A stretch of 64,000 nt of DNA, from assembly GCF_004799035.1 (NCBI RefSeq), contig NZ_MWIO01000013.1, positions 1 through 64,000 on the forward strand, given 5' to 3'. Positions 26,452 to 41,255 of the stretch are shown here, piece after piece. Under the pieces are notes generated by a model that had not been told where the DNA came from, searched no databases, and worked only from the letters and a program-made list of their open reading frames with translations. Both the position numbers and the translations under genes were made by a program. Within the stretch, counting starts at the first letter, position 1. Each line of letters begins with the position of its first letter. The DNA comes from Rhodanobacter lindaniclasticus. GTDB taxonomy: Bacteria > Pseudomonadota > Gammaproteobacteria > Xanthomonadales > Rhodanobacteraceae.

Positions 26452-28071
26452 TCAGTAGACGTCGCGTCGATAGCGCCCCTGTTCGCGCAACTGCGCGACC
26501 CGCGCGGCACCCAGCACCTCGCACAGCACCGCATCGACGCCGGGCGCCAGTCCGTCGAGGCTGCCGCAGACATAGATCGCTGCACCTTCGTCGACCCAGT
26601 GCCGCAGCTCGTCACCGGCTTCGCGCAGGCGTTGCTGCACGTGGATGCGCTCGCCCTGGTCGCGCGACCAGGCAAAATCGGCGCGCGCGATGGCGCCTTC
26701 GGCGATCCAGCGTTCGATATCCTCGCGATGAAGGAAATCGTGTGCGCGGTGGCGCTCGCCGAACAGCAGCCAGTTGCGCGTGCGACCGGCGGCGATGCGT
26801 TGCTTGAGCAAGGCGCGCAAGGCGGCCAGGCCAGTACCGTTGCCGATCAGCACCAGCGGGCGTGCATCGCCAGGCACATGGAAGTTGACGTTGCTGCGCA
26901 CGCGCAGCGCAATCTCCGCGCCGATCGGTGCGTGCTCGGTGAGCCAACCCGAGCCCAACCCGGGATAGCCACCACGCGCGCGCATCCGGCGCACGATCAA
27001 CTGCAGCGTGCCGTCCTGCGGCAGCGAGGCGATCGAGTACGCGCGATGCGGCAGCAACTGCAACATCGCGGCGACGCCCTCCTCGTCCAAGTCTTCGATC
27101 TCGTCTGGCTCGGGCAGGCGACAGCGCGCCAGCAAGGTCGCCAACGGCAGCCGCTCCCGGTACCCGAACGGCACCACGACGCGGCCATCCAGCCCGCGCG
27201 CCGCCAGCCATGTAGCCACCGCTTCGGCGGCATGGCGGGGACCGATCTCGGCCAGGTCGCCAGCCTGCCAATCCGCGTGACCCTCCAGCGGCTTGAGTGC
27301 CAGATGGAAACAGGGCTCGCCCACGCTGCCCGGGTTGAGCAAGCGGCGCTCGACCAGTTGCCAGCGCCGGTACTTCGGCGGCTGCCAATCCGGCAGATCG
27401 GGCGCGCCGCCGAGCACGGCCAGGTGATGCTGCCAGCGGCGCTGACTGGCGTCGTCCTCGCTGTCCACCTCCACCGGATCGAACAACGCGTGTGCGCCGC
27501 TGGCCTGCAGCCAGCGATGGAGCTGGCGGCCGAAGCCGCAAAAGTCCTCGTAGTCGCTGTCGCCCAGAGCCAGCAGGCCGTAATGCAGACCGGTCAGTGA
27601 CGCGGGCTGCCGCATCAGTTGCCGGGTGAAGGCCAGCGCCATGTCAGGCGGCTCGCCATCGCCGGTAGTGCTGACCACGAACAGCACGCGACCCGCCTCG
27701 CGCAGATCGTCCAGCGCCACCTCGTCGATACCGATCACGCGAGTGGGCAGACCGGCCAGCTGCAGGCTCTGCGAAGTCTGACGGGCCAGTTGTTCGGCGA
27801 AACCGGTCTGGCTGGCGTACACCACGCGCAGCGCCGCATTTGCGGACCGCGCCTGGGCAGCGGGGACGTCGCCAGCTTCAAGCGTGGCCCGCTGCCCGGT
27901 CGCCACGTCCTTCACGGCAACCGGCTGGCTTGGCGCAGCGCCGAGCCGGAAGCGCGACAGACCAAACAGATCCCGCGCCAAACTGATCCAGTGCCACTGA
28001 TGCAGCTGGCACATCCAGGATGCGCGACGCGGCAGATCCGTGTTTTCAGCAAGAGAGGCTGGTTGACCCAT
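26452..28071 (-). CDS. flavodoxin/NADPH-reductase fusion (sulfite reductase alpha-like)
   Basis: A 539-residue flavoprotein of the cytochrome P450 reductase/CysJ type: flavodoxin domain (about 80-215; VVYASQTGFAEQLA, STTGDGEPPD, LALGDSDYEDFCGFG), FAD domain (RAYSIASL), and NADPH domain (LVLIGNGTGLAALRALL, YVCGSL). The 80 residues before flavodoxin (QLHQWHWISLARDLFG) look like the tail of a PepSY membrane domain that precedes flavodoxin in related iron-uptake reductases, here too short to span the membrane repeatedly. ATG 28071 is chosen for a GGA ahead of it; GTG 28110 and ATG 28014 are alternatives. A possible Fur box about 110-130 bp upstream fits a siderophore or metal reductase. No cysI-like partner is adjacent. 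Confidence 0.75.
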   Translation of the reverse strand: MGQPASLAENTDLPRRASWMCQLHQWHWISLARDLFGLSRFRLGAAPSQPVAVKDVATGQRATLEAGDVPAAQARSANAALRVVYASQTGFAEQLARQTSQSLQLAGLPTRVIGIDEVALDDLREAGRVLFVVSTTGDGEPPDMALAFTRQLMRQPASLTGLHYGLLALGDSDYEDFCGFGRQLHRWLQASGAHALFDPVEVDSEDDASQRRWQHHLAVLGGAPDLPDWQPPKYRRWQLVERRLLNPGSVGEPCFHLALKPLEGHADWQAGDLAEIGPRHAAEAVATWLAARGLDGRVVVPFGYRERLPLATLLARCRLPEPDEIEDLDEEGVAAMLQLLPHRAYSIASLPQDGTLQLIVRRMRARGGYPGLGSGWLTEHAPIGAEIALRVRSNVNFHVPGDARPLVLIGNGTGLAALRALLKQRIAAGRTRNWLLFGERHRAHDFLHREDIERWIAEGAIARADFAWSRDQGERIHVQQRLREAGDELRHWVDEGAAIYVCGSLDGLAPGVDAVLCEVLGAARVAQLREQGRYRRDVY

Positions 28072-28177
28072 GGCGATCCGTGTTCGGCGCACCGGACCTT
28101 CCCGCGGCACCTCGCGAGGGCGCGAAAGACGGAACCGGCGCGGCGCCGGACGAAAGATCCGGCCGAGCCATTAAATC

Positions 28178-28393: not shown

Positions 28394-29407
28394 TCAGCTC
28401 AACCCGATCTGCTTCATCGCCTTGCTCTTGATCCCGGCGAAGAAGCCCTTCTTCGCATGCGTTCCCTTGTCGCTGCTGAGCCCTTCCAGTTGCAGGCGGG
28501 AGCCCATGATGTTCTTGTTGGCGATCTTCAGCAGCGGGTCCATCTGCTTCTTCTTCATCAGCTCGACCTTGTCCATCCAGCCCGGCAGGCCGATGTCGGC
28601 GACGAACATGTTGGCGACCGCCGAGGTGTCGGCGCAGGTGAGCAGATAACAGCCGAGGATCGGACACTCGTTGAACACGGTGAGATCCAGCGTGTTGGGC
28701 GCCGCCAGCCGCTTGTTGCCGGCGCGCATATCCTTGATGTCCAGACCCAGCGAAAACAGCAGCAGACCCAGGCTGGCCAGCGTGTTGGCCACGCCGATCG
28801 CGGCGGTGGTGGCCGTACCGAAGTCGGCGAACAGGCCGCCGATCTTCGCTCCCGTCGCCACCGTCTGCTGGCCCAGCTTCACCGAATGCTGGGCCAGGTC
28901 GCGCTTGATGATCGCCTGGATCGCCTCGGCCGCCGCACTCGGGTCGCCCATGCGGAAACCGTTCTTGTACTCGTCGCTCTTGTAGAGGTTGTAGCCATCC
29001 TGCGCCACTGCCTTGCCCGCCTTGGCCAGCTTCACCGTGCTGGTGACCACGCCGAGGTAAGGCGTTACCTCCGACACCAGTTCGTGCAGCACCTCGCCGC
29101 CGATCGCCTCGATCACGTCGTGGATGTTCTCCACGTCGGCGCACTCGACCATGAAGTTCTCGAACGCTTCCTTCATGCCCGGCACGCTGGCGACCTTGGT
29201 CGCCGTGCTGCCGCCCTTGGCCAGCTTGCTGACGTCGGATTTCAGCGACTTGCCGGAGGACAGCAGCGACTTCCCCGTCGACAGCGTGCTGGCACTGCCG
29301 AACTTGAGCCTGGTGCCTCCGAACATGTTGACGACGAGCTGCCGGCGTGCCTTGGCAAGCTCGCCCATGGCGATGAATTCGGCGCGGCTCAAAGGTGTGG
29401 AAGGCAT
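28394..29407 (-). CDS. T6SS-linked protein of unknown family, possible membrane-active effector
   Basis: I do not recognise this 337-residue protein. It has no signal peptide. Residues 30-70 are Ser/Lys-rich, 110-150 amphipathic helix, and 189-222 a long Gly/Ala/Leu stretch (GGLFADFGTATTAAIGVANT followed by LASLGLLLFSLG) that could insert into membrane; a second, shorter hydrophobic run containing two Cys lies at 248-258. The C-terminus is Lys-rich. It is last in the T6SS strand run, 166 bp after the caspase-like gene, where P. aeruginosa HSI-I has vgrG-linked genes. Composition is high GC like the rest of the window, unlike its neighbour. Pore-forming effector, adaptor or immunity protein are all possible. 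Confidence 0.6.
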   Translation of the reverse strand: MPSTPLSRAEFIAMGELAKARRQLVVNMFGGTRLKFGSASTLSTGKSLLSSGKSLKSDVSKLAKGGSTATKVASVPGMKEAFENFMVECADVENIHDVIEAIGGEVLHELVSEVTPYLGVVTSTVKLAKAGKAVAQDGYNLYKSDEYKNGFRMGDPSAAAEAIQAIIKRDLAQHSVKLGQQTVATGAKIGGLFADFGTATTAAIGVANTLASLGLLLFSLGLDIKDMRAGNKRLAAPNTLDLTVFNECPILGCYLLTCADTSAVANMFVADIGLPGWMDKVELMKKKQMDPLLKIANKNIMGSRLQLEGLSSDKGTHAKKGFFAGIKSKAMKQIGLS

Positions 29408-29573: not shown

Positions 29574-30566
29574 CTAGATCAACCCTCCACGATAAAGCTC
29601 CGCATTCACCGCCACGCCACCCGTGGCCCCATACCGATTCGTGATGACTAGTTGAGACCCGCTGAAGTCGTAAATGAGCTTTCCATAATTGGACGTCTGA
29701 TTTCTGTCGGGAAACAGATTCATCATCCATTGCGCGCGTACCGGTGAATATGGAATATAACGAAGCGCAAAACGTTCCACCTCGTTGGTGGGAGCGGCAT
29801 TGGGATTGTTTGCAAACTTCATCATTACGTTGTTTCCAAAGTCCGCGTTGCTCATTTTCAGTCTCTGGAGCAGCGCCGCCTTTTCAATCTCAATCTGCTG
29901 CTTTTGCGGGCTGTTCTGCAACGCTGCCACCTCCTGCTTCTTGTCGACGTACAGCACTTGATCCTCGTTTTCGCATGTGTGCTTGAGGTCGCCATCGTTG
30001 GAAACCGCCCCGGTCCAAGCCACCATCCGAATGTTTCTTGCGCCACACAATTCGCGGAAGAACTTGTAAGCAAAACTGCTGGCCAACTCGCCGGAGGGAA
30101 TCATGCCTTCATGGTTCAGACGGACGTTCCTGCAACGCGCGCCGTAGCACATCACGAGGCTGATTCTGTATTTCTCGTCTCGTATTGGCATGAGAAGCTT
30201 GGCCAGGCGCCCGAGTTGCTTGAACGTACAGACAGAACCCCCGCTTGTGGAAAATCCTTCATCGGTGTCATCCGGCTTGCCGTGCAACACGAAAACGACC
30301 GTCCGCGACTTCTCGATATGCTTGCGGATGTCCTTGACGTCATCCTTGGACAAGGTGCCAGCCGCGTCCCTTGCAATGAGTTCCTGGCATGGGTAGAAGA
30401 CCATCCTTGCTCGCCCTTTTGTAACCTCTCGCTTGGCATAGACCTGCGCCGTGCCCGCGGCAGCCGCACCTGCGCCAAACTTGGAAGGATCTCGCCCCCC
30501 TTTCACCTTGCCAGTCGCCACTCGTGGACTGCTGTCTTCGAAATTGAGAATCGTGTAGTAATTCAT
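29574..30566 (-). CDS. putative clan CD (caspase-like) cysteine peptidase, T6SS-linked
   Basis: A 330-residue protein without signal peptide. The centre reads as a caspase-like fold: strand then His95-Gly in TVVFVLHGKPDD, a loop and helix (CTFKQLGRLAKLL), then strand and Cys140 in YRISLVMCYGARC, a further helix (ASSFAYKFFREL) and strand RMVAWTGAVSND. The His-to-Cys spacing of 45 is close to that of clan CD peptidases (caspases, clostripain, toxin autoprocessing domains). The assignment rests on pattern only. GAGGG precedes ATG 30566. Its GC is markedly lower (about 43% in a 60-nt sample near 29700) than the flanking T6SS genes, suggesting recent acquisition. It sits 120 bp downstream of clpV, where vgrG lies in HSI-I. 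Confidence 0.55.
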   Translation of the reverse strand: MNYYTILNFEDSSPRVATGKVKGGRDPSKFGAGAAAAGTAQVYAKREVTKGRARMVFYPCQELIARDAAGTLSKDDVKDIRKHIEKSRTVVFVLHGKPDDTDEGFSTSGGSVCTFKQLGRLAKLLMPIRDEKYRISLVMCYGARCRNVRLNHEGMIPSGELASSFAYKFFRELCGARNIRMVAWTGAVSNDGDLKHTCENEDQVLYVDKKQEVAALQNSPQKQQIEIEKAALLQRLKMSNADFGNNVMMKFANNPNAAPTNEVERFALRYIPYSPVRAQWMMNLFPDRNQTSNYGKLIYDFSGSQLVITNRYGATGGVAVNAELYRGGLI

Positions 30567-30686: not shown

Positions 30687-33434
30687 TTACCCAAACCCGT
30701 AAGAGAACTCCCCATCCGTCACGCCGACCTGCACTTTCGCCACCTCCTCGCCCGCAATCATCCTGGTGAGGAACGCGCGAGAGATATCCGGCAACATGGA
30801 GTTGGTCAGGATCGCGTCGATCATGCGGCCACCCGACTCGGTCTCGGTGCAACGCTCCACCACCAGCTTCACCACGTCCTCGCTGTATTCGAACGGGATC
30901 TTGTAGCGGGCCTCGACGCGCTTCTTGATGCGGTTGATCTGAAGCTTGACGATCTTGCCCAGCATCTCCGGGCTGAGCGGGTAGTACGGGATCGTCACCA
31001 GGCGACCGAGCAGCGCGGGCGGGAAGATCTTCAGCAGCGGCTCGCGCAGCGCCTTGGCCATGCCCTCGTGATCGGGCATCAGCTCCGGGTCCTTGCACAG
31101 GCCGGCGATCATGTCGGTGCCGGCATTGGTGGTGAGCAGAATCAGGGTGTTCTTGAAGTCGATCTGGCGGCCTTCGCCATCCTCCATCACGCCCTTGTCG
31201 AACACCTGGAAGAAGATCTCGTGGACGTCCGGATGGGCTTTCTCCACCTCGTCCAGCAGTACTACCGAATACGGCTTGCGGCGCACCGCTTCGGTGAGCA
31301 CGCCGCCCTCGCCGTAGCCGACGTAACCCGGAGGCGCACCCTTGAGCGTGGAGACGGTGTGCGCCTCCTGGAACTCGCTCATGTTGATGGTGATGATGTT
31401 CTGCTCGCCGCCGTACAGCGCCTCGGCCAGTGCCAGCGCAGTTTCCGTCTTGCCGACGCCGGAGGTGCCGGCCAGCATGAACACGCCGATCGGCTTGTTC
31501 GGATCGACCAGGCCGGCGCGCGAGGTCTGGATGCGCTTGGCGATCATCTCCATCGCGTGATCCTGTCCGATGACGCGAGCGCCCATCAGCTTGGCCAGGT
31601 TCATCACGGTCTCGACTTCGCTCTTGACCATGCGACCGACCGGGATGCCGGTCCAGTCCGACACCACCGAACCCACCGCCTGCTGATCGACCGAGGCCAG
31701 GATCAGCGGATGCTCACCCTGCAGCTCGGCCAGCTGGCCCTGCAGCTCCTGCAGCTCCTTCAGCGCGGCGGCACGATCGTCGCCCGCGAGGGCAGCTTCA
31801 CCCGTTGCCGGAGCTTCCTTGGCTTCGGCAACCTGATTGGCCGATTCTTCCAGGGCGCTGCCGGTGCCTTCGACCGGTGCGCTGGATCCACGCAGCTTCG
31901 CGCGGATATCCAGGATCTTGTCGACCAGATCCTTCTCCTTGATCCAGTTTGCTTCCAGCGTTTCCAGCCGCGCCTTCTGCGTGACCAGCTTCTCGTTGGC
32001 GGCTTCTTCGCGGGCGGTGACATTCACGCCGACGTTCTTCTCGCGGGCGATGATGCCCAGCTCGGTCTCCAGCGCCTGGATGCGCTTGCGGGTGTCGTCC
32101 ACTTCGGCCGGCACCGCGTGCTGGCTGATCGCCACGCGCGCGCAGGCGGTATCGAGCAGGCTGACCGACTTGTCCGGCAGCTGCCGCGCGGGAATGTAGC
32201 GGTGCGAGAGCTTCACCGCCGCCTCCAGCGCCTCGTCGAGGATCTGCACCTTGTGGTGCTTCTCCATCACGCTGGCGACGCCGCGCATCATCAGGATCGC
32301 CTTCTCCTCGCTGGGCTCGTCGATCTGCACGGTCTGGAAGCGGCGGGTCAGCGCCGGGTCCTTCTCGATGTGCTTCTTGTATTCGGCCCAGGTGGTGGCG
32401 CCGATCGTGCGCAGGTTGCCGCGCGCCAGCGCCGGCTTGAGCAGATTCGCCGCGTCGCCGGTGCCGGCCGCGCCGCCGGCGCCGACCAGGGTGTGTGCCT
32501 CGTCGATGAACAGGATGATCGGCTTGGTCGAGGACTGCACCTCCTCGATCACCTGCTTCAGGCGGTTCTCGAACTCGCCCTTCATGCTGGCGCCGGCCTG
32601 CAGCAGGCCCACGTCGAGCACGCGCAACTGCACGTCCTTCAGCGGTGGCGGCACGTCGCCGATGGCGATGCGCATGGCGAAACCCTCGATCACCGCCGTC
32701 TTGCCCACACCGGCCTCGCCGACCAGCATCGGGTTGTTCTGGCGGCGGCGCATGAGGATGTCGACCAGCTGGCGGATCTCGTCGTCACGACCGACGATCG
32801 GGTCCATCTTGCCGTCGCGCGCCTGTGCGGTGAGGTCGATGGTGAATTGCGCCAGTGCCTCCTGCTTGCCCATCTGTGCGGGCGACATCGCGCCGCTGGC
32901 CTCGCCGGGCGCGCTGCCGCCGCCCATCCTGAAGCCGTCGTTGGCGCTCTGCCCGTCCTCGGGCGAGCCGCCGACCACCTCGGCGAACTTCTCCACCAAT
33001 GCTTCGGGCTTGATCTTGTCGAACTCGGCGGAAATGTTGACCAGCGCGTTGCGCAGGTTGCGCGTGCGCAGGCAACCGACGATCAGGTAACCGGTGCGCA
33101 CCTGTGCCTCGCCGAACATCAGCGTGGCGAACACCCAGCCGCGCTCGACCGCCTCTTCGACGTTGCTGGACAGATCGGAAATGGACGAGGAGCCGCGCGG
33201 CAGCCGGTCCAGCGCATCGGTGATGTCGCGCGCCAGGTTCGACGGGTTGAGGTTGAACTGCTTGACGATGCGGTGCAGGTCCGAATCCTGCAGCTGCAGG
33301 ATCTGGTGGATCCAGTGCACCAGCTCCACGTACGGATTGCCGCGCAGTTTGCAGAACACGGTGGCGCTTTCGATGCACCGGAAAGCGAGCTTGTTGAGTT
33401 TCCCGAACAGCGCGCCGCGACTGATCTCGGCCAT
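30687..33434 (-). CDS. clpV: T6SS sheath-disassembly ATPase ClpV (TssH)
   Basis: A 915-residue AAA+ disaggregase of the ClpB family. The N-domain (about 1-160) lacks the ClpB consensus and binds the TssB/TssC sheath. Two AAA modules follow: Walker A GEAGVGKT (239-246) with DEAHTLVGAGG, and Walker A GTSGVGKT (656-663), with a coiled-coil middle domain between (about 410-570). An Ala/Glu-rich insertion lies about residues 530-560. ClpV recycles contracted sheaths with ATP. It ends the recognisable apparatus genes in the run tssB-C-hcp-tagJ-E-F-G-H, the HSI-I order. Confidence 0.96.
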   Translation of the reverse strand: MAEISRGALFGKLNKLAFRCIESATVFCKLRGNPYVELVHWIHQILQLQDSDLHRIVKQFNLNPSNLARDITDALDRLPRGSSSISDLSSNVEEAVERGWVFATLMFGEAQVRTGYLIVGCLRTRNLRNALVNISAEFDKIKPEALVEKFAEVVGGSPEDGQSANDGFRMGGGSAPGEASGAMSPAQMGKQEALAQFTIDLTAQARDGKMDPIVGRDDEIRQLVDILMRRRQNNPMLVGEAGVGKTAVIEGFAMRIAIGDVPPPLKDVQLRVLDVGLLQAGASMKGEFENRLKQVIEEVQSSTKPIILFIDEAHTLVGAGGAAGTGDAANLLKPALARGNLRTIGATTWAEYKKHIEKDPALTRRFQTVQIDEPSEEKAILMMRGVASVMEKHHKVQILDEALEAAVKLSHRYIPARQLPDKSVSLLDTACARVAISQHAVPAEVDDTRKRIQALETELGIIAREKNVGVNVTAREEAANEKLVTQKARLETLEANWIKEKDLVDKILDIRAKLRGSSAPVEGTGSALEESANQVAEAKEAPATGEAALAGDDRAAALKELQELQGQLAELQGEHPLILASVDQQAVGSVVSDWTGIPVGRMVKSEVETVMNLAKLMGARVIGQDHAMEMIAKRIQTSRAGLVDPNKPIGVFMLAGTSGVGKTETALALAEALYGGEQNIITINMSEFQEAHTVSTLKGAPPGYVGYGEGGVLTEAVRRKPYSVVLLDEVEKAHPDVHEIFFQVFDKGVMEDGEGRQIDFKNTLILLTTNAGTDMIAGLCKDPELMPDHEGMAKALREPLLKIFPPALLGRLVTIPYYPLSPEMLGKIVKLQINRIKKRVEARYKIPFEYSEDVVKLVVERCTETESGGRMIDAILTNSMLPDISRAFLTRMIAGEEVAKVQVGVTDGEFSYGFG

Positions 33435-33503: not shown

Positions 33504-34526
33504 CTATCCCACCGGCTGCAGCACGACCTCATCGACGTCAGCGGCGTGCCGGGGCGACCCCAGCCACGTCGTCAGCCCCATCCTTCCGTCGCGCCCCAGG
33601 CGCGTCACCGGCACGTCAGCCCTTTTCAGGACCAGCTGCACGTCCCAGGCTTTTTCCTCGCCGAGATAGGTCTTCACGGCGGCGACCAGCTGCCGGAGCG
33701 CGTCGCCGCCCGGCAGGAAATTGTTGAACTGGGCGCGGCTGAGCGGCCCCAGGCGCAGGCGGAAACGCTGCTGGCTGCCGCGCACGTACTGCCCGGTGAC
33801 CGTGGTCAGGCCCAATGCAGCCACGTCACTCGAGCTGCCCAGGCGCAGCAGCGAATCGGACGGCAGCCGCATCCACTCAGCAATGAACTCGACGATATCC
33901 ACCGGCACGCGGAAAAATCGCTCCAGCATGCCCTGCAGACCCTCGGCGTTGCGTGCCTGTTGCAACAGGCGCCCCGCGAAGAACCGCTTGAACTGGTCCG
34001 GCAGCGCGTCGCGATCGTCCAGATCCGGCGTGGCCAGGCCTACCAGGGCGCCCATGTACAACCGGAAACGGTCCTCCTCGGGACGATCCATCTGCACCGT
34101 GGGCTGGGCATCGGCCCAGCTGCGGTAGAACAGGCTCATCATGCGGTGGTGGAAGATGTCGGCGAATGCACGGAACGTGCTGTCGCGGGAATTCATCTCG
34201 CGGTCCATCGCATATTCGGTCAGGTGCAGCGGCAGTGGCCCGTTGGGGCCGAACAAGCCGAAGAACAAGCCGTGCATGCGCGCCGGCCTGCCGCCACCGC
34301 CGGGCTGGTAGCTGTCCACGGTTCTCGGCGCGAACGCCAGCGACGGCGTCTGGCCGAGCCTCACGAAGTCGTCGCTGGCCTTGGTCGACTGGCCCAGCCG
34401 CGGACGCTCCGGGAACGCGCACTCCAACCGCCGGATCGCTTCGAAGAACTCGAAGGACTCGGGGTGGTCGCGCAGCGCATTCTCCAGCGCTACAGCGTCT
34501 GCCGTGTTCCCAACCGGGCGGGCCAT
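33504..34526 (-). CDS. tssG: T6SS baseplate protein TssG
   Basis: The 340-residue protein matches TssG (ImpH/VasB, DUF1305): PESFEFFEAIRRLE near the N-terminus, GLFGPNGPLPLHLTEY (about 88-103), and TTVTGQYVRGSQQRFRLRLG near the C-terminus. TssG with TssE, TssF and TssK builds the baseplate wedge that seeds tail assembly. Its start lies inside the end of tssF (37-bp overlap), so translation is coupled, consistent with the TssF2-TssG stoichiometry needing tight co-expression. ATG 34526 gives the complete family N-terminus. Confidence 0.95.
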   Translation of the reverse strand: MARPVGNTADAVALENALRDHPESFEFFEAIRRLECAFPERPRLGQSTKASDDFVRLGQTPSLAFAPRTVDSYQPGGGGRPARMHGLFFGLFGPNGPLPLHLTEYAMDREMNSRDSTFRAFADIFHHRMMSLFYRSWADAQPTVQMDRPEEDRFRLYMGALVGLATPDLDDRDALPDQFKRFFAGRLLQQARNAEGLQGMLERFFRVPVDIVEFIAEWMRLPSDSLLRLGSSSDVAALGLTTVTGQYVRGSQQRFRLRLGPLSRAQFNNFLPGGDALRQLVAAVKTYLGEEKAWDVQLVLKRADVPVTRLGRDGRMGLTTWLGSPRHAADVDEVVLQPVG

Positions 34527-36373
34527 CGGGCGACCTCGTTGCGTTCCAGCGTGCGCAGAACGGTTTCAGTGAAGGAGTTGATCGATACGTATCGGGCAAA
34601 GAACTGCTGCATCACGGCGCCCAGCAGGAACGCGCCGGTGCCTTCGAAGGCACCGTCGTCGCAGGTGAGGGTGATCTCCAGGCCACGGCCAAAAGTGATC
34701 GGGCCCGGCAACGGGATACGCCGCACGATGGATTGCGAGCTGACCGCCTTGAGTCCCTCGATCTGGCGCCGCGCACCGGAATCGAATTCGTCGCAGTAGA
34801 GGGTCAGCATCTCGCGCAGCGCTGCGGCGCCTTCGCCTGCGTTGTTCTCCAGCAGGGAGACATAGTTGAGTTGCAGGTGACTGAGCAGGCGCCATGCGGT
34901 CTCGCCGGTAGCCACCGAGGCGCGTGGCTTGGTCGGACCGGCGACGCAGCGGATCGACTCCACCGGCGCGCCGGTCTCCAGGGTGAAATCGGTATGCGAT
35001 TTGCCGACCGGCATCTGCAGCGGCAGATCGCGGTTGGTGCACATCAGCTGCATGCCGATCTGGCGCAGCTCGGTCGAGTACGGCGCCTCGCTGGAGTCGA
35101 CCAGCGAGATGTACATCTCGTTGCCGATGTAACTGGAACGCGCACCCTGGCGCTTCTGCCTGGAGGAAAGCAGCCGCGGTTCGCGCCGGATCGTGTAGTA
35201 GGCCGAGTGCCGGGCGTGCCAGCTGCGCTCATCGCAGCCGTAGAACGGCAGGAAGCGCTGTTCCGGCTCCTGCCGGTCGCCGAAACCCTCGACGTTGCCG
35301 ATGCTGTGGATCTCGAAATCCATCGGCCGGGTGCGATCGGCAAGGATGTGGTACTCGCTGGTGCCCTGCTTGAGGTGGATGCGATCGGCCCGCCGCGGGA
35401 ACAGGTTGATCGCCGGGGTGCAGAACAGCCGGAAATTGCTCACGTCGACGGCGTTGTGCAGGCTGGCCACGCTGCGATCAAACAGCACCACGATCTCGAA
35501 CTCGCTGCCCTTGGCGCGGGCCAGCAGCGGCTGCAGGCCGGTGAACTCGGCGAACAGGAAGCGCTCCGGGCAGGCGAAGTATTCCTGCAGCAACCGGTAG
35601 CCGCTGAACGAACGACCGGAATACGGAATGAGCGCTTCGTCGTCATCGAAGCCGCGCCGCTGGATGCGGTTGGCGTCGTGGCTCTCGCTGATCGTTCCGG
35701 ATGCGCCTTGCGCCCGCACCTGGTAGCCGACCGCGTTGCCCAGCAGTTGCTCGTACAGGCGCTTGGGCAGCTCGTCGGTGCCGGCAACGAATACCGGCAA
35801 CCGATCCAACGCCAGCATGTTGGCCTGGGCACCGGCGGTGACACGAAACTTCAGACGCAGTCCGGCACGCACGGTCTTGCCCGCCGGCAGTACCACCCCG
35901 GCGGCGGCAATCGCGGCGGGCGTCTCGAAGTACTTCGCCTCGGTCAGCTCCAGCGGCCACAGGGTGACCTCGTGGGCGGTGCGGTATTCGCAGGCGGTGC
36001 GGTCATCCTTGCCGATCAAGCTGCGCAAGGCCGTGTGCCGGGCCACCTTGTGGCCAGCCAGCAGCCCGCTCTCCTTCAGATCCGGGTACATCTGCACCAC
36101 GGTCATCGACGGTACCGGTGCCAGGTAATGCGGGTAGATCATCTCCAGCAGGTGCTGGGTGAACACCGGATACTGCGCGTCGAGCTTGAGCTGCACGCGC
36201 GCGGCCAGGAAGGCAAAGCCTTCCAGCAGGCGTTCCACGTAAGGATCGGCGCACTCGAAGCCTTCCAGGCCGAGTCGACCGGCGATCTTGGGATATTCGC
36301 GGGCGAACTCGCCGCCCATTTCGCGAACGTGTTGCAGCTCCCGGTTGTAGTAGCGCAGCAGTCTGGGGTCCAT
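34490..36373 (-). CDS. tssF: T6SS baseplate protein TssF
   Basis: This 627-residue protein is a clear TssF (ImpG/VasA, DUF879): it opens with DPRLLRYYNRELQHVREMGG and has EYPKIAGRLGL, PYVERLLEGFAFL and PHYLAPVPSM, all conserved. TssF forms the core of the baseplate wedge with TssG and binds TssK. It starts 6 bp after tssE and overlaps tssG by 37 bp, indicating a tightly translated unit. Confidence 0.96.
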   Translation of the reverse strand: MDPRLLRYYNRELQHVREMGGEFAREYPKIAGRLGLEGFECADPYVERLLEGFAFLAARVQLKLDAQYPVFTQHLLEMIYPHYLAPVPSMTVVQMYPDLKESGLLAGHKVARHTALRSLIGKDDRTACEYRTAHEVTLWPLELTEAKYFETPAAIAAAGVVLPAGKTVRAGLRLKFRVTAGAQANMLALDRLPVFVAGTDELPKRLYEQLLGNAVGYQVRAQGASGTISESHDANRIQRRGFDDDEALIPYSGRSFSGYRLLQEYFACPERFLFAEFTGLQPLLARAKGSEFEIVVLFDRSVASLHNAVDVSNFRLFCTPAINLFPRRADRIHLKQGTSEYHILADRTRPMDFEIHSIGNVEGFGDRQEPEQRFLPFYGCDERSWHARHSAYYTIRREPRLLSSRQKRQGARSSYIGNEMYISLVDSSEAPYSTELRQIGMQLMCTNRDLPLQMPVGKSHTDFTLETGAPVESIRCVAGPTKPRASVATGETAWRLLSHLQLNYVSLLENNAGEGAAALREMLTLYCDEFDSGARRQIEGLKAVSSQSIVRRIPLPGPITFGRGLEITLTCDDGAFEGTGAFLLGAVMQQFFARYVSINSFTETVLRTLERNEVARWPARLGTRQTL

Positions 36374-36379
36374 GGGTGA

Positions 36380-36883
36380 TCAGCCGAAGCCCTCCGACAC
36401 CTTGAAGTTGCCCGTCTCGAGGTCGACCTCGGTCTTCAGGTACAGATTCAACGGGATCGGCTGCGCCCACATTTCCGATTCGATGTTGAAGATCAGCGCC
36501 TGGCGATCCATGCGCTTGCCGAGCGCGTTGACGCTGACGCGCAAGGTATTGGCGGTCAGCCGCGGCTCGTAGGCAACGATGGCGTCGCGCACACGACGCT
36601 GCAGCGCTTCCGCGTTGATGCCGGACAGCGCCACACCGGTGAGATCCGGAATGCCGAAGTTCAGCACCGAGCGGGAAACCTCGGAATACTCCTCGAGCTC
36701 GACGCTCGCCTCCAGGCTCACGCAATTCAACAGCCAGGAAATGTCGCGGGTGACGCATTCGCGCAACCGCGATACGGAGAGCACGCGCTTCTCGCGGCTT
36801 TCCTCCAGCTTGCCCGGCTCATCGTCGGTCAGGCGATCTAGCAGCGAAGGCTGAAGTCGTTCCTGGGTGGTGAGTTCAGCCAT
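36380..36883 (-). CDS. tssE: T6SS baseplate protein TssE (gp25-like)
   Basis: A 167-residue homologue of phage T4 gp25. The gp25 lysozyme-like core covers about residues 45-150, with VLNFGIPDL and the conserved AIVAYEPRL. TssE links the baseplate to the first sheath ring. Slightly longer than average because of an N-terminal extension rich in Leu/Glu/Arg. It lies between tagJ and tssF with short gaps of 19 and 6 bp. Confidence 0.94.
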   Translation of the reverse strand: MAELTTQERLQPSLLDRLTDDEPGKLEESREKRVLSVSRLRECVTRDISWLLNCVSLEASVELEEYSEVSRSVLNFGIPDLTGVALSGINAEALQRRVRDAIVAYEPRLTANTLRVSVNALGKRMDRQALIFNIESEMWAQPIPLNLYLKTEVDLETGNFKVSEGFG

Positions 36884-36902
36884 GGAAGGTCAGTGCTCCC
36901 GC

Positions 36903-37691
36903 TCAGGCGACATCGAACGTGATCAGTCGCACGTCGAGCAGCGGATAGTCGGCCACGTCGGTGGCCAGCATGCGCTGGCCCAGGCCGATCTGGTCGCTGT
37001 CCTGCTCCGCCCAGTCGGTCTTGCGCGCGAGCACGATGTCGTGGTCGTCGGACCGTTCGCTGCCGGCATAGCGCCCGGGAATGAAGCCGATCGCCTGCCC
37101 GCCGTTGGTCCAGGTCACCTGGGTCGGCACCCAGATCTTGTCGCGCAGATCGCTGGGGGCCTCGAACTTGAGTTCACGCAGCCGCGAGAACGGTACCCAG
37201 GAGTAGCCGCCGTTGACGATGATCTCCAGGCACGGCCCGATGCGGGGGTCGGCATCGGCGATCCACTCGAACGCGGTGCCGTCGATGTTGCCCGCCACTG
37301 CCGGAGCCTGTTCCAGTGCCTGCTCGCGCAGCGCCGCGGCCTGCTCGTGCTTGCCTTCAGCACCGAGCTTGAGCGACTGCAGCAGCAGCGCCAACCACTG
37401 CTCCGGTTCGCCGATGATCACCGGCATGCGTTTGCCGGCGAAGACGTCGGCGCGCACCAGTTCGCCCTTCAGCGCCTCCGAATAGGCGCCGACCATCATG
37501 GCGTTGAGCGGGTCGAGTTCGCCGCAGACGTTGAGCTGGTTCTGCGCCCGTTCCCATTGTCCGAGCAGCGCCAGCAACTGGAATAAAAAAACCCGGCGTT
37601 TGGCGTCTGCCGGGTTGTTGCGTACTTCCGCCGTGAGCAGTTGCAGCGCCTCGTCCGGCCGGCCTTCTTTGAGCTTGCTTTCGGGTGTCAT
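36903..37691 (-). CDS. tagJ: T6SS accessory protein TagJ (ImpE)
   Basis: The 262-residue protein is ImpE/TagJ: N-terminal tetratricopeptide-like helices (KEGRPDEALQLLTAEVRNNP; RRVFLFQLLALLGQWERAQ), then a C-terminal domain with EWIADADPRIGPCLE and LRELKFEAPSDLRD typical of the family. TagJ binds the TssB N-terminal helix and helps ClpV engage the sheath in HSI-I-type systems. Its presence marks this as the HSI-I/TagJ-containing (i3-like) class. A structured 206-bp spacer separates it from hcp. Confidence 0.93.
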   Translation of the reverse strand: MTPESKLKEGRPDEALQLLTAEVRNNPADAKRRVFLFQLLALLGQWERAQNQLNVCGELDPLNAMMVGAYSEALKGELVRADVFAGKRMPVIIGEPEQWLALLLQSLKLGAEGKHEQAAALREQALEQAPAVAGNIDGTAFEWIADADPRIGPCLEIIVNGGYSWVPFSRLRELKFEAPSDLRDKIWVPTQVTWTNGGQAIGFIPGRYAGSERSDDHDIVLARKTDWAEQDSDQIGLGQRMLATDVADYPLLDVRLITFDVA

Positions 37692-37711
37692 GTCGTCTCT
37701 CGATGCCGGCG

Positions 37712-37808
37712 ACCCCGTCGGCAACGGGGTGGCGGGCGCGGGAAGGTCGCCGTCGCCCCAACCGGCGATCCCGGGTGCAGGCGGACAAATGCCGCCCACC
37801 GCACCCGG
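37712..37808 (-). other. structured hcp 3' region (two hairpins)
   Basis: Between hcp and tagJ two inverted repeats occur: CCGGGTGC / GCACCCGG (37771-37778 with 37801-37808) enclosing a second stem GGCGG / CCGCC, and ACCCCGT / ACGGGGT (37712-37718 with 37724-37730). Neither has a T-run. They could stabilise hcp mRNA or attenuate read-through, giving high Hcp relative to downstream genes. Confidence 0.5.
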
Positions 37809-37897
37809 AACGCCATGGCGCAACAGGCCGTCGCATCCATCCCCTGGACCTGGATCGCCGGATTGCAGCGTCCGGCGAAACCTGGTCAGGCGCCGAC

Positions 37898-38392
37898 TCA
37901 GCTCGCCGCGACTTCCTCGACGCTGTACCCCACCGTGCCGGCCGAAGCCACCACGCCCTTGTCGTTCTGGGCGAAATACTCGACATCGAACTTGGCGAAG
38001 CTGATCGAGATGTTCTCCGTCAGCATGTCCTCGCCACCCGAGCCACCGGTGGAATAACTGGTGATCATCGCGCTGGTCAGCTTGATGGTGAAGTAGTCCT
38101 CCTGCTTGCCGCCTGCCTTGGATATGAACAGGGTCGCGGTGTCGACGTGCGCGCCGGTGACCAGCGCCTTGATGAAGGACGTGGTGCTCTTGTCGATGTA
38201 CTTGGTGAAGCTGATGTCCTGCACGTTGGCCTTGCCGGCGCCGCCGCCGGTGCCATGGCCGAAGGAACCGCTCTGCGACATCCCCCAGGACCAGGCCAGC
38301 AGCTGGATCTGGTCTTTGTGCTTGGCATGCTTGGACTCGCCGGTGAAGGTGACGTCGCCGCCCTCCAGCTTCAGGTGCATGTCTAGTGCCAT
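37898..38392 (-). CDS. hcp: T6SS tube protein Hcp
   Basis: A 164-residue Hcp: the family's LKLEGGDVTFTGESKHAKHK, QLLAWSWGMSQSG, FTKYIDKSTTSFIKAL and ISFAKFDVEY are all present. Hcp forms stacked hexameric rings of the inner tube and carries small effectors in its lumen. The gene lies between tssC and tagJ as in HSI-I. This Hcp1-type protein is a structural tube protein, with no fused effector domain. It likely has the highest output of the operon; the flanking spacers are larger than elsewhere in the cluster. Confidence 0.96.
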   Translation of the reverse strand: MALDMHLKLEGGDVTFTGESKHAKHKDQIQLLAWSWGMSQSGSFGHGTGGGAGKANVQDISFTKYIDKSTTSFIKALVTGAHVDTATLFISKAGGKQEDYFTIKLTSAMITSYSTGGSGGEDMLTENISISFAKFDVEYFAQNDKGVVASAGTVGYSVEEVAAS

Positions 38393-38515
38393 GAGAATTC
38401 TCCTTGTCTGTTGAGATCAGGTGAACCGGACAGTTCTCGCTCGGAGGAAGCTGCTCGGCGATTGACTGGTACTGCCAGTTGAAACCGTGGAACGAACCTG
38501 CGGGAAACTTCCGGG

Positions 38516-40009
38516 TCAGCCCTTGGCCGCCGAAGGAAGACGGGACACCAGCCTCAAGGAAACAGTCAGGCCCTCCAACTGATAATGCGGCTTGAGGAAA
38601 AACTTCGACGTGTAATACCCGGGCGCGCCTTCCACCTCTTCCACCACCACTTCCGCGGCCGACAAGGGTTTGCGGGCCTTGGTTTCTTCGCTGGAGTTGG
38701 CCGGGTCGCCATCGACGTACTGGTTGATCCAGGACCCCAGCCAGCGCTCCATCGCCGTGCGATCCTTGAAGGAGCCGATCTTGTCGCGCACGATGCACTT
38801 CAGGTAATGCGCGAAGCGGCAGCAGGCGAACATGTACGGCAAGCGCGCGCCCAGCGCCGCGTTGGCGGTGGCGTCCGGATCGTCGTACTCCTCCGGCTTG
38901 CTCAGCGACTGGGCACTGATGAACGCGGCCATGTCCGAGTTCTTGCGATGCACCAGCGGCATCATGCCCATCTTGTCCAGCTCGGCCGAGCGGCGATCGG
39001 TGATCGCGATCTCGGTCGGGCACTTCATGTCCACGCCGCCATCGTCGGTCGGGAAGGTGTGCGCGGGCAGGCCTTCCACTGCGCCGCCGGACTCGATGCC
39101 GCGGATGCGCGAGCACCAGCCATATTCCTTGAACGAGCGGTTGATGTTCACCGCCATCGCGTAAGCCGCGTTCTGCCACGTGTACTTGGACGAATCGGCG
39201 CCGGCGGTGTCCTCCTCGAAGTTGAACTCTTCCACCGGGTCGGTCTTGGCGCCGTACGGCAGGCGGGCCAGCGTACGCGGCATGGTCAGGCCGATGTACT
39301 TGGCGTCATCCGATTCGCGCAGCGAACGCCACGCGGCATAGTCCGGCGTGGAGAACACCTTGGCCAGGTCGCGCGGGTTGGCCAGCTCGTTCCAGCTGTC
39401 CATGCCCATCAGGGTGGATGCGGCGGCCGAGATGAACGGCGCGTGCGCCGCCGCGGCGACCTGCGCGATGCCCGAGAGCAGTTCGACATCCGGCGGGCTG
39501 TGGTCGAAGTAGTAGTCGCCGACCAGGCAGCCGTAGGGTTCGCCGCCGAGCTGGCCGTACTCTTCCTCATACAGTTTCTTGAAGATGGGGCTCTGGTCCC
39601 AGGCCGTGCCCTTGTAGCGCTTCAGGGTCTTGCCCAACTCCTTCTTGGAGATGTTCATCACGCGGATCTTCAGCAGCTGATCCGTCTCGGTGTTGTTGAC
39701 CAGGTGATGCAGGCCGCGCCACGCGCTTTCCAGCTTCTGGAAATCGGCGTGGTGCATGATCAGGTTGATCTGCTCGCTGAGCTTGCGATCGATCTCGGCG
39801 ATGTAGGCGTTGATGGTCTGGGCTACGTCATCGGAAACGATGTCGGCCTTGTTCAACACCTGCTCGGCCAGCGTGCGCACGGCCGATTCGACCTCTTCCT
39901 TGGCGCGATCGCTCTTGGGCTTGAATTCCTTGTTCAGCAGCGCAGCGAAATCGCCGGCGTCGAGAGTCTGTACGGCGCCTTCCTGGTCGGCTAGTTTTTC
40001 GGTGGCCAT
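38516..40009 (-). CDS. tssC: T6SS sheath large subunit TssC
   Basis: The 497-residue sheath protein has the hallmark SAWRGLHHLVNNTETDQLLKI, KLYEEEYGQLGGEPYGCLVG, HAPFISAA, LARLPYGAKTDPVEEFNFEE and a C-terminal SLRLVSRLPSA. With TssB it polymerises into the contractile sheath around the Hcp tube. The N-terminal 60 residues are acidic and helical. It begins 6 bp after tssB and is translationally close to it. Confidence 0.97.
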   Translation of the reverse strand: MATEKLADQEGAVQTLDAGDFAALLNKEFKPKSDRAKEEVESAVRTLAEQVLNKADIVSDDVAQTINAYIAEIDRKLSEQINLIMHHADFQKLESAWRGLHHLVNNTETDQLLKIRVMNISKKELGKTLKRYKGTAWDQSPIFKKLYEEEYGQLGGEPYGCLVGDYYFDHSPPDVELLSGIAQVAAAAHAPFISAAASTLMGMDSWNELANPRDLAKVFSTPDYAAWRSLRESDDAKYIGLTMPRTLARLPYGAKTDPVEEFNFEEDTAGADSSKYTWQNAAYAMAVNINRSFKEYGWCSRIRGIESGGAVEGLPAHTFPTDDGGVDMKCPTEIAITDRRSAELDKMGMMPLVHRKNSDMAAFISAQSLSKPEEYDDPDATANAALGARLPYMFACCRFAHYLKCIVRDKIGSFKDRTAMERWLGSWINQYVDGDPANSSEETKARKPLSAAEVVVEEVEGAPGYYTSKFFLKPHYQLEGLTVSLRLVSRLPSAAKG

Positions 40010-40015
40010 GCGTGC

Positions 40016-40537
40016 TTACTCCCCGTCTTTGTTGGTGTCGTCGGCGGGCTTGGGCGCCGAGACCAGCGACTGCAGCAGCGCCGGATCCTTGAGCGCCTGG
40101 GCAATCAGGTTTTCGGCGCCCGCCTTGCCGTCCATGTAGGTATCCAGGTTGGCGAGCTGGGTGCGCGCCTCGAGCAGTTTCGCGACCGCACCGACCTTGC
40201 GGGCCACCGCCGCCGGCGAAAAGTCGTCCATGCTCTCGAAGGTGATGTCCACGGCCAGGTTGCCTTCGCCGGTGAGCGTGTTCGGCACCGCGAAGGTCAC
40301 CCGCGGCTTCATCGAGTTCAGGCGGCTGTCGAAATTGTCGACGTCGATTTCCAGCGCCTTGCGATCCTCGATCGGCGGCAACTCGCCCGCATTGGCGCCG
40401 GACAGATCCGACATCACGCCCATCACGAACGGGACCTGTACCTTCTTCTGGGCGCCATAGACCTCGACGTCGTACTCGATCTGCACGCGGGGCGCACGGT
40501 TGCGCGCGATGAACTTCTGACTACTCTGCTTGGCCAT
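40016..40537 (-). CDS. tssB: T6SS sheath small subunit TssB
   Basis: A 173-residue TssB (VipA/ImpB): QKFIARNRAPRVQIEYDVEV, VPFVMGVMSDLSG, PRVTFAVPNTL and DDFSPAAVARKVGAVAKLLEAR are diagnostic. Its C-terminal helices expose the ClpV and TagJ contact sites. ATG 40537 has GGGAG at the right distance. It is the first gene of the minus-strand T6SS run; upstream genes (tssA, tssK, tssJ, tssL, tssM, vgrG) are not within 800 bp and are not found anywhere in this window. Confidence 0.96.
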   Translation of the reverse strand: MAKQSSQKFIARNRAPRVQIEYDVEVYGAQKKVQVPFVMGVMSDLSGANAGELPPIEDRKALEIDVDNFDSRLNSMKPRVTFAVPNTLTGEGNLAVDITFESMDDFSPAAVARKVGAVAKLLEARTQLANLDTYMDGKAGAENLIAQALKDPALLQSLVSAPKPADDTNKDGE

Positions 40538-41255
40538 GCGATTCTCCCGGTGGGCATGCGTGGGTTTTCGAAATGCAGCTTCCATCCGTTTCGGCGCGGC
40601 CCGGACCTGCCAGGCGGCGGCGAAACGAAAAGTCATTCGGGGTAGGGGCTGAAGCGCAGCGGTCGCGACGACGGATGGTCGTGACGCAGGTGCTGGCGGC
40701 GTGTGCCCGGTGCTCGGGGTGGATCAGGGGGGAGCGTGGAAAGGCAGCGCGCCAGCACAAACCGTGTCGACGCGCGGGAGCGTGGCCCGATTCCGGTGGC
40801 GAGTGTATGCGCAAGCGTACGTTCCCCTTCGTTCCGCGCGGCAAGTCGGCTTGGCGACGCGATGTTCCCCGGTGGCATACGCAACGCCCCGGACCCCGCC
40901 CGACTCCAGTGATGCACCACACCCCGCCACAGCGCGTCGAACCGATGTTCACCCCACCTCGACGCGGAATTCCGGAGTGGCTGAGTGCCCGATCTCCTCA
41001 GATCACCTCACGGCCCGCCGGGACCCGAGTCGCCAGCAGCCGGAGTACGATCGACCGTCTGAACAATCTACATCCGTGAATGGATTGCTGCAAGCTGAAT
41101 CGACCGGGATCGGCCCATCTCCGGAGAGCAACGAAGCTTCGCGGATTCACGCCGGCAGATGCGGTGACGGCATCGGGTGGAGCCGCGTCCACCGAGGCGG
41201 CAATCCGCTCGCGAAGGCCATCGGAGTCGGGAGCGCAGCATGGTGCCGCCCGACG
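40538..41255. other. gene-free stretch upstream of the T6SS run
   Basis: About 720 bp between tssB and the tRNA-Val terminator. I find no credible gene in it on either strand and no clear -24/-12 (sigma-54) site, though T6SS runs are often sigma-54 or stress regulated. It presumably holds the T6SS promoter. Confidence 0.5.

Follow-up and report, generated by a model that had tools for sequence, protein, structure and literature searches.

A candidate cysteine protease in a hypervariable cargo slot next to clpV of a Rhodanobacter type VI secretion system

Gene content of the T6SS locus

The DNA analysed here, referred to as the window, is a stretch of 64,000 nucleotides from Rhodanobacter lindaniclasticus (contig NZ_MWIO01000013.1, positions 1 to 64,000). 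It carries a block of type VI secretion system (T6SS) genes on the minus strand (Table 1). The gene order tssB-C-hcp-tagJ-E-F-G-clpV, which had been read from the letters in a first-pass annotation, is backed by a Pfam match for each gene: VipA, VipB, Hcp, ImpE (TagJ), gp25, TssF and TssG, with AAA_2/AAA_lid_9 for clpV. The T6SS block is followed by a gap of 120 bp, the gene of protein P0001, a gap of 166 bp, the gene DOWN and a gene for a flavodoxin-type oxidoreductase.

The ORF of P0001 opens with ATG and closes with TAG, and coincides with the 330-residue minus-strand frame annotated at first pass. Its GC content is 0.539, compared with 0.618–0.674 in the eight T6SS genes alongside, so the remark that this gene is clearly lower in GC than its neighbours holds; GC3 is 0.66, compared with 0.83–0.90 in the same eight genes. 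A comparison across the 64 kb in 993-bp windows with a step of 10, leaving out those that overlap P0001, found none that reaches this low GC. The translation contains His95-Gly and Cys140, 45 residues apart, as had been described.

Table 1. Features of the T6SS locus around P0001 (positions in the window).
Feature	Coordinates	Strand	Remarks
Flavodoxin-type oxidoreductase	26452-28110		Next gene after DOWN
DOWN	28394..29407	-	337 aa; conserved, no family match of note; slot border in some members of the genus
P0001 cargo gene	29574..30566	-	330 aa, 36.7 kDa, pI 9.4; prediction: cysteine protease of C80/caspase-like type, with His95 and Cys140 as candidate dyad
Codon of Cys140	30147..30149	-	Candidate nucleophile, motif LVMCYGARC; end of predicted strand 134-140 (low-confidence model)
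Codon of His95 (then Gly96)	30282..30284	-	Candidate catalytic His; end of predicted strand 89-95 (low-confidence model)
clpV	30687..33434	-	AAA+ ATPase that recycles the sheath; borders the cargo slot on its left; Pfam
tssG, tssF, tssE, tagJ, hcp, tssC, tssB	33504..40636	-	T6SS block; Pfam

Location of vgrG

P0001 had been placed at the vgrG position of the cluster, which is misleading, as P0001 does not replace vgrG. The vgrG gene of this genome is found on another contig (C37), together with genes for a TPR-methyltransferase protein, DUF6931, FHA, tssK, tssM and tagF; in Rhodanobacter sp. 67-28 (G028), vgrG is likewise on a contig separate from the clpV slot. TssG was matched in 40 other genomes, and the regions downstream of clpV were read in 21 of them, the remaining 19 being at most 56% alike in TssG. 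In 14 of these 21 stretches, vgrG is found further downstream than the cargo slot, following the TPR-methyltransferase gene in 13 and directly following the cargo in one (G054); in the other seven it lies outside the fetched stretch, in G020 just beyond it. Stretches of sufficient length show the order clpV, cargo, (DOWN), TPR-methyltransferase, vgrG, DUF6931, FHA, tssK. Pfam finds neither of the hub domains of VgrG (GPD, gp5-like) in P0001.

The second half of the T6SS cluster, from the TPR-methyltransferase gene to tagF, occupies locus L080 (G000:C37:8000-27500). The protein encoded between the cargo slot and vgrG (L080:14779-16641 and its homologues in relatives) combines TPR with a SAM-methyltransferase; the start of its gene may, as judged by eye only, be PAAR-like in another frame.

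The cargo slot downstream of clpV

A hypervariable cargo slot lies between clpV and either DOWN or the TPR-methyltransferase gene, and P0001 is one of its many alternative occupants. A simple ORF picker, set to about 140 aa or more and leaving out anything smaller, yielded 43 slot ORFs from 20 relatives (Rhodanobacter sp. 67-28 excluded; for G053, the first four only). Together with P0001, these ORFs form 29 clusters (blastp E ≤ 1e-5) across 21 genomes including that of the window. Three singleton clusters (L054_7746, L055_6145 and L054_5884) are doubtful by eye, two of them being remnants of DOWN and one a likely frame artefact. The GC content is below that of the same genome's clpV in 42 of the 43 ORFs.

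A Pfam scan of 20 of the 43 ORFs gave matches at E ≤ 0.1 for 12 and no match for eight. Five of the scanned proteins pass the curated cut-off, as endonuclease NS_2, Aspzincin M35 (twice), RIP and cytidine-deaminase-like proteins; seven others have weak matches to M6, Tle1-like, M35, CHAP, C97, Fic and NS_2 families. Unrelated enzymes alternate in this slot of Rhodanobacter T6SS loci, and its occupants can be taken directly as candidate effectors of a soil genus.

By its location in a T6SS-adjacent place that holds other effectors, P0001 has one of the marks of an effector. The toxin-type alternatives in the slot make a stronger case for P0001 as injected cargo than does its own sequence, and it is highly probable that P0001 is a T6SS cargo effector. 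The earlier idea of a protease moved with the tube is favoured by a slot containing toxin-type enzymes, and P0001 itself would presumably be secreted in this way. Kinship of P0001 with other slot proteins was rejected: the best phmmer match, L065_5679, has an E-value of 0.0065 and is absent among the matches listed in a profile search of slot proteins.

The commonest cargo is a PI-PLC-like protein, encoded in nine genomes (L047, L053, L055–L060 and L064), which form the largest cluster. One member resembles PI-PLC over 45 residues (PDB 2plc, E 6.1e-5) and also calcineurin B over another stretch (E 0.0025); Pfam gave no match for the two members that were scanned. The slot of L062 (G001) contains an RIP match above the cut-off together with a Fic match below it. 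In L057 and L058 (G017 and G006), the slot holds a three-gene set encoding a CHAP-like protein, a protein with a HEARH-type motif (by eye) and the PI-PLC-like protein.

Distribution of P0001 and its homologues

Among 120 relatives searched, P0001 is encoded in two, one of them being the genome of the window, compared with 41 of 120 for TssG. The other copy belongs to Rhodanobacter sp. 67-28 and is 99% identical. Between these two carriers, the dS of P0001 is 0.066, as against 0.20–0.40 for tssG, clpV, DOWN, tssF and tssC, and its dN is 0.005; judging by these values, the gene looks constrained, and looks to have been acquired or exchanged more recently than its neighbours. A search of 398 genomes of the phylum returned only the window's own genome, as did a search of 250 genomes of the order with a four-row profile, apart from a weak partial match in G097 (E 0.019, profile positions 200–284) that lacks the catalytic part and was left uncounted. 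Among viral contigs, 4 and 37 pattern matches were obtained, none of which was confirmed; the plasmid and phage collections gave no P0001 match.

The first-pass annotation had also considered a protease acting on the apparatus. A position directly after clpV would suit a protease with a housekeeping or regulatory role in processing the T6SS itself. However, such a protein would hardly be expected in so few of the TssG-bearing relatives; its low GC and low dS mark the gene as a newcomer, and one distant homologue is encoded far from the sheath gene (see below). This explanation is very improbable.

A scan of the genome collection with a 130-aa core returned two loci, in Rhodanobacter sp. 67-28 and in a Gemmatimonadaceae MAG (G508), the latter encoding a full-length homologue (L067:6433-7425). 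A profile search of the class of this MAG added a second full-length homologue in G548 (L074:8323-9264). Both of these homologues from another phylum share 26–30% identity with P0001 along their full length. Of the 295 genomes in this class, the profile search matched four. Two of the matches are the homologues just described; those in G617 (E 0.001) and G636 (E 0.003) were dropped, since by eye the frames concerned resemble the reverse strand of a different gene and a protein of glycosyltransferase-like type.

The homologues in G508 and G548 are solitary genes with no recognised T6SS gene alongside; the G548 gene is about 2 Mb from TssC, and the G508 gene is on a different contig from TssC. 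A search for the VgrG hub family gave two matches in G548 and none in G508. Such solitary settings, and the result for G508, would suit a passenger gene that came into the slot by chance and is unrelated to T6SS delivery. This explanation is, however, at odds with the recognisable toxin-type enzymes in the slots of relatives, and both carriers outside the genus match the sheath family TssC/VipB, which is found in 41 of 295 genomes of the class; the chance of TssC in two of two carriers is about 0.02, a figure resting on two observations. A chance passenger is thus quite improbable, and delivery of P0001 as T6SS cargo is preferred.

Candidate catalytic residues and predicted fold

A four-row alignment was made of P0001, the Rhodanobacter sp. 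67-28 copy and the homologues of G508 and G548. It has 59 invariant columns, which include His95-Gly96 and Cys140 within the motif LVMCYGARC; the two residues whose poor conservation would have spoken against the first-pass proposal are the same in all four rows and across two phyla. Two of the four His and three of the six Cys residues of P0001 are invariant, and further invariant positions are Asn151-His152, Thr101-Asp102, an N-terminal LNFED, Cys145 and Cys60. His95 and Cys140 are a candidate catalytic dyad, a choice that is not unique given the invariant His152, Cys145 and Cys60.

A pattern of a hydrophobic run ending in HG, followed after 35–60 residues by a hydrophobic run ending in C, was found in five of 886 ORF segments of at least 200 aa (coding and non-coding frames of all loci examined). 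Two of these five segments belong to the homologues, which leaves three among 884 unrelated segments. The pattern occurred in 23 of 20,000 composition shuffles, and its appearance together with the conservation is unlikely to be due to chance. The spacing between His and Cys is 45, 50 and 49 in P0001 and the two distant homologues; it is 45 in the H655/C700 dyad of TcdA and 40 in the H144/C184 dyad of OspB (PMC9239218).

At the limits applied, searches with P0001 itself returned no family from Pfam, NCBIfam or PADLOC, and none of the PDB sequences was a convincing match. The sole peptidase family among the Pfam matches is C80 (PF11713), found in the Gemmatimonadaceae homologue over the HG...C stretch (profile positions 57–146 of 154) with E 0.12 for the whole homologue and 0.026 for the core. 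This match is below the threshold (15.3 bits, cut-off 23.8), concerns one of the four members and surfaced after several tries. When the C80 profile was run on whole genomes of the class of this MAG, 29 of 374 gave chance matches of about 11–18 bits at E ≤ 1 and none exceeded the cut-off; G508, home of the matching homologue, gave no C80 match at E ≤ 1 in that scan. One homologue has a weak NCBIfam match to the metalloprotease effector family GtgA/GogA (E 0.087). Comparison with peptidase profiles, which had been suggested as a check, thus gave a sub-threshold C80 match in one homologue but none in P0001.

Two AlphaFold models obtained from three-row alignments have pLDDT values of 48.6 and 47.5. 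Both show four strands with a helix between each and the next, the second strand ending at His and the third at Cys, so the predicted location of His and Cys at the ends of adjacent strands reappears at the ends of successive strands, with a confidence as low as about 48. A His followed by a Cys at strand ends is the arrangement of clan CD. The modelled alpha/beta layout would suit this clan and would also suit many Rossmann-like folds. Fold searches with these poor models retrieved generic, unrelated Rossmann-like structures and singled out no family; the proposed fold check gives a layout compatible with the first-pass reading but yields no specific caspase-type match.

In P0001, the matches to generic Rossmann-like folds only, the invariance of Asp102 besides Cys60, Cys145 and His152, and a C80 signal close to noise would also be expected of some other alpha/beta enzyme carried as T6SS cargo, such as a nucleophile hydrolase or a deamidase working through other invariant Cys and His residues. 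Against this stand the restriction of the peptidase matches to C80, with an alignment that spans the HG...C stretch, and the clan CD order of the two residues; an enzyme of another kind is accordingly rather unlikely. The caspase-like reading keeps the HG and C conserved across phyla and the C80 hint in its favour while lacking a fold match, and it is moderately probable that P0001 is a cysteine protease of the clan CD type. Its nearest relatives are probably the C80 toxin proteases, P0001 being a stand-alone protein. It is not filed here as a C80 member, having no significant match to the profile.

Immunity and the probable target

The gaps that flank P0001 leave no room for an immunity gene. 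The only minus-strand ORF of at least 20 aa confined to them is 32 aa long, longer ones overlapping genes, and an adjacent cognate immunity gene, a mark of antibacterial effectors, was not found in either gap. T6SS cysteine proteases such as Cpe1 attack bacteria and are encoded next to an immunity gene (PMC12136450), and P0001 could likewise be an antibacterial T6SS protease, with protection coming from the adjacent 337-aa DOWN or from a difference in the target. DOWN does directly follow P0001. Yet it was found in 12 of 120 relatives including the window's genome (two copies being partial), and in the ten genomes with a full-length copy it adjoins seven different cargo clusters; the nine other full-length copies are 78–97% identical. 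Because DOWN stays constant while the adjoining cargo changes, it is not a cognate immunity protein. Immunity proteins of the Cpe1 type have 79–239 aa (PMC12136450), and the gaps contain no such ORF. An antibacterial role for P0001 is therefore improbable. DOWN gave no match of note in Pfam, NCBIfam or PDB; it could be an effector or accessory protein in its own right.

TagJ, FHA and TagF are all present in this T6SS. These are the marks of group 3 of the Xanthomonadales systems, which includes the T6SS of X. citri (PMC6653060), and the likeness to group 3 is judged here by the presence of the three proteins. The X. citri system protects against amoebae and, according to the same 2019 review, was then the only one experimentally characterised (PMC6653060). 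T6SS effectors that lack an immunity gene have been classed as anti-eukaryotic on that ground, among them MIX effectors of V. campbellii with a C80-like domain (PMC6267618). Since an immunity gene is absent and the system shares TagJ, FHA and TagF with the X. citri group, the target of P0001 would more probably be eukaryotic, most likely an amoeba or a fungus.

Inositol hexakisphosphate (InsP6) of the eukaryotic cell activates C80 proteases and OspB (PMC2900308, PMC9239218). If P0001 depended on such a host-only cofactor, its producer would need no protection. With pI values of 9.2–9.4, P0001 and the two distant homologues are basic proteins, which would allow InsP6 binding. C80 proteases use a Trp of the beta-hairpin in their InsP6 response (PMC2900308); the four-row alignment has no invariant Trp. 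A missing immunity gene combined with a host-only cofactor would give a simple, testable rule for separating anti-eukaryotic from antibacterial cargo.

Proposed action and comparison with known systems

In the mechanism proposed, P0001 would be loaded in or on the Hcp/VgrG tube, whose components are encoded in the window and on contig C37, and injected into a neighbouring amoeba or fungus. There it would be switched on by a cofactor available only in the host, possibly inositol hexakisphosphate, the activator of C80 proteases and OspB, and the active enzyme would cut host proteins through Cys140. The conjunction of a cargo effector, a clan CD cysteine protease and a eukaryotic target falls somewhat short of an even chance. 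If it is true, a small, domain-free caspase-like protease is added to the T6SS arsenal. A wider proposal is speculative and rather unlikely: P0001 would be the founding member of a family, found both in Rhodanobacter and among relatives of the Gemmatimonadaceae, of stand-alone caspase-like proteases activated in eukaryotes (gated by InsP6 or similarly), which travel as free T6SS cargo with neither delivery domain nor immunity gene and belong to an anti-predator arsenal swapped in the slot between clpV and vgrG.

The first-pass annotation regarded such cargo as a little-described type. C80-like T6SS cargo has, however, already been predicted (PMC6267618); predicted C80-type T6SS effectors and the stand-alone, injected, C80-like OspB of a type III system are already in print. 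In titles and abstract openings on T6SS, caspase-like and C80-type effectors, mostly from non-subscription literature, the P0001 protein is not named.

C80 domains (PF11713), which are cysteine protease domains found in MARTX and in large clostridial toxins, have a His-then-Cys dyad with a spacing similar to that of P0001 (PMC2900308, PMC9239218). In C80, the two residues are about 6 Å apart (PMC2900308). C80 domains are, however, autoprocessing domains of giant toxins, whereas P0001 is a small stand-alone protein with a sub-cut-off score in one homologue and no invariant Trp. OspB and VPA1380 are stand-alone, C80-like effectors of type III systems; the OspB type is described as small (288 aa), injected and basic, with a His-Cys dyad and no autoprocessing seen (PMC9239218). 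P0001 differs in its type VI setting, and the likeness is one of description rather than of sequence comparison. Closer in delivery are the MIX V effectors of V. campbellii, which have a C-terminal RtxA/TcdB-like protease domain, use the T6SS, lack an immunity gene and are predicted to be anti-eukaryotic (PMC6267618), as is proposed for P0001. They are MIX-domain proteins, in contrast to P0001, in which no delivery domain was recognised and whose gene occupies the slot between clpV and vgrG. By its sequence and neighbourhood, P0001 fully fits neither the OspB nor the MIX-C80 definition, having no significant profile match, no MIX domain and type VI genes around it.

Cpe1, EvpQ and TsaP are T6SS-associated cysteine proteases, as P0001 is read to be. 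They are papain-like enzymes with a Cys-His-Asp triad and usually an adjacent immunity gene, and Cpe1 targets bacteria (PMC12136450). The Tox-Caspase domains of polymorphic toxins have been proposed as caspase-like toxins, with the T6SS among the routes listed for them (PMC3482391); these occur at the C-terminus or in the interior of larger modular proteins, while P0001 stands alone.
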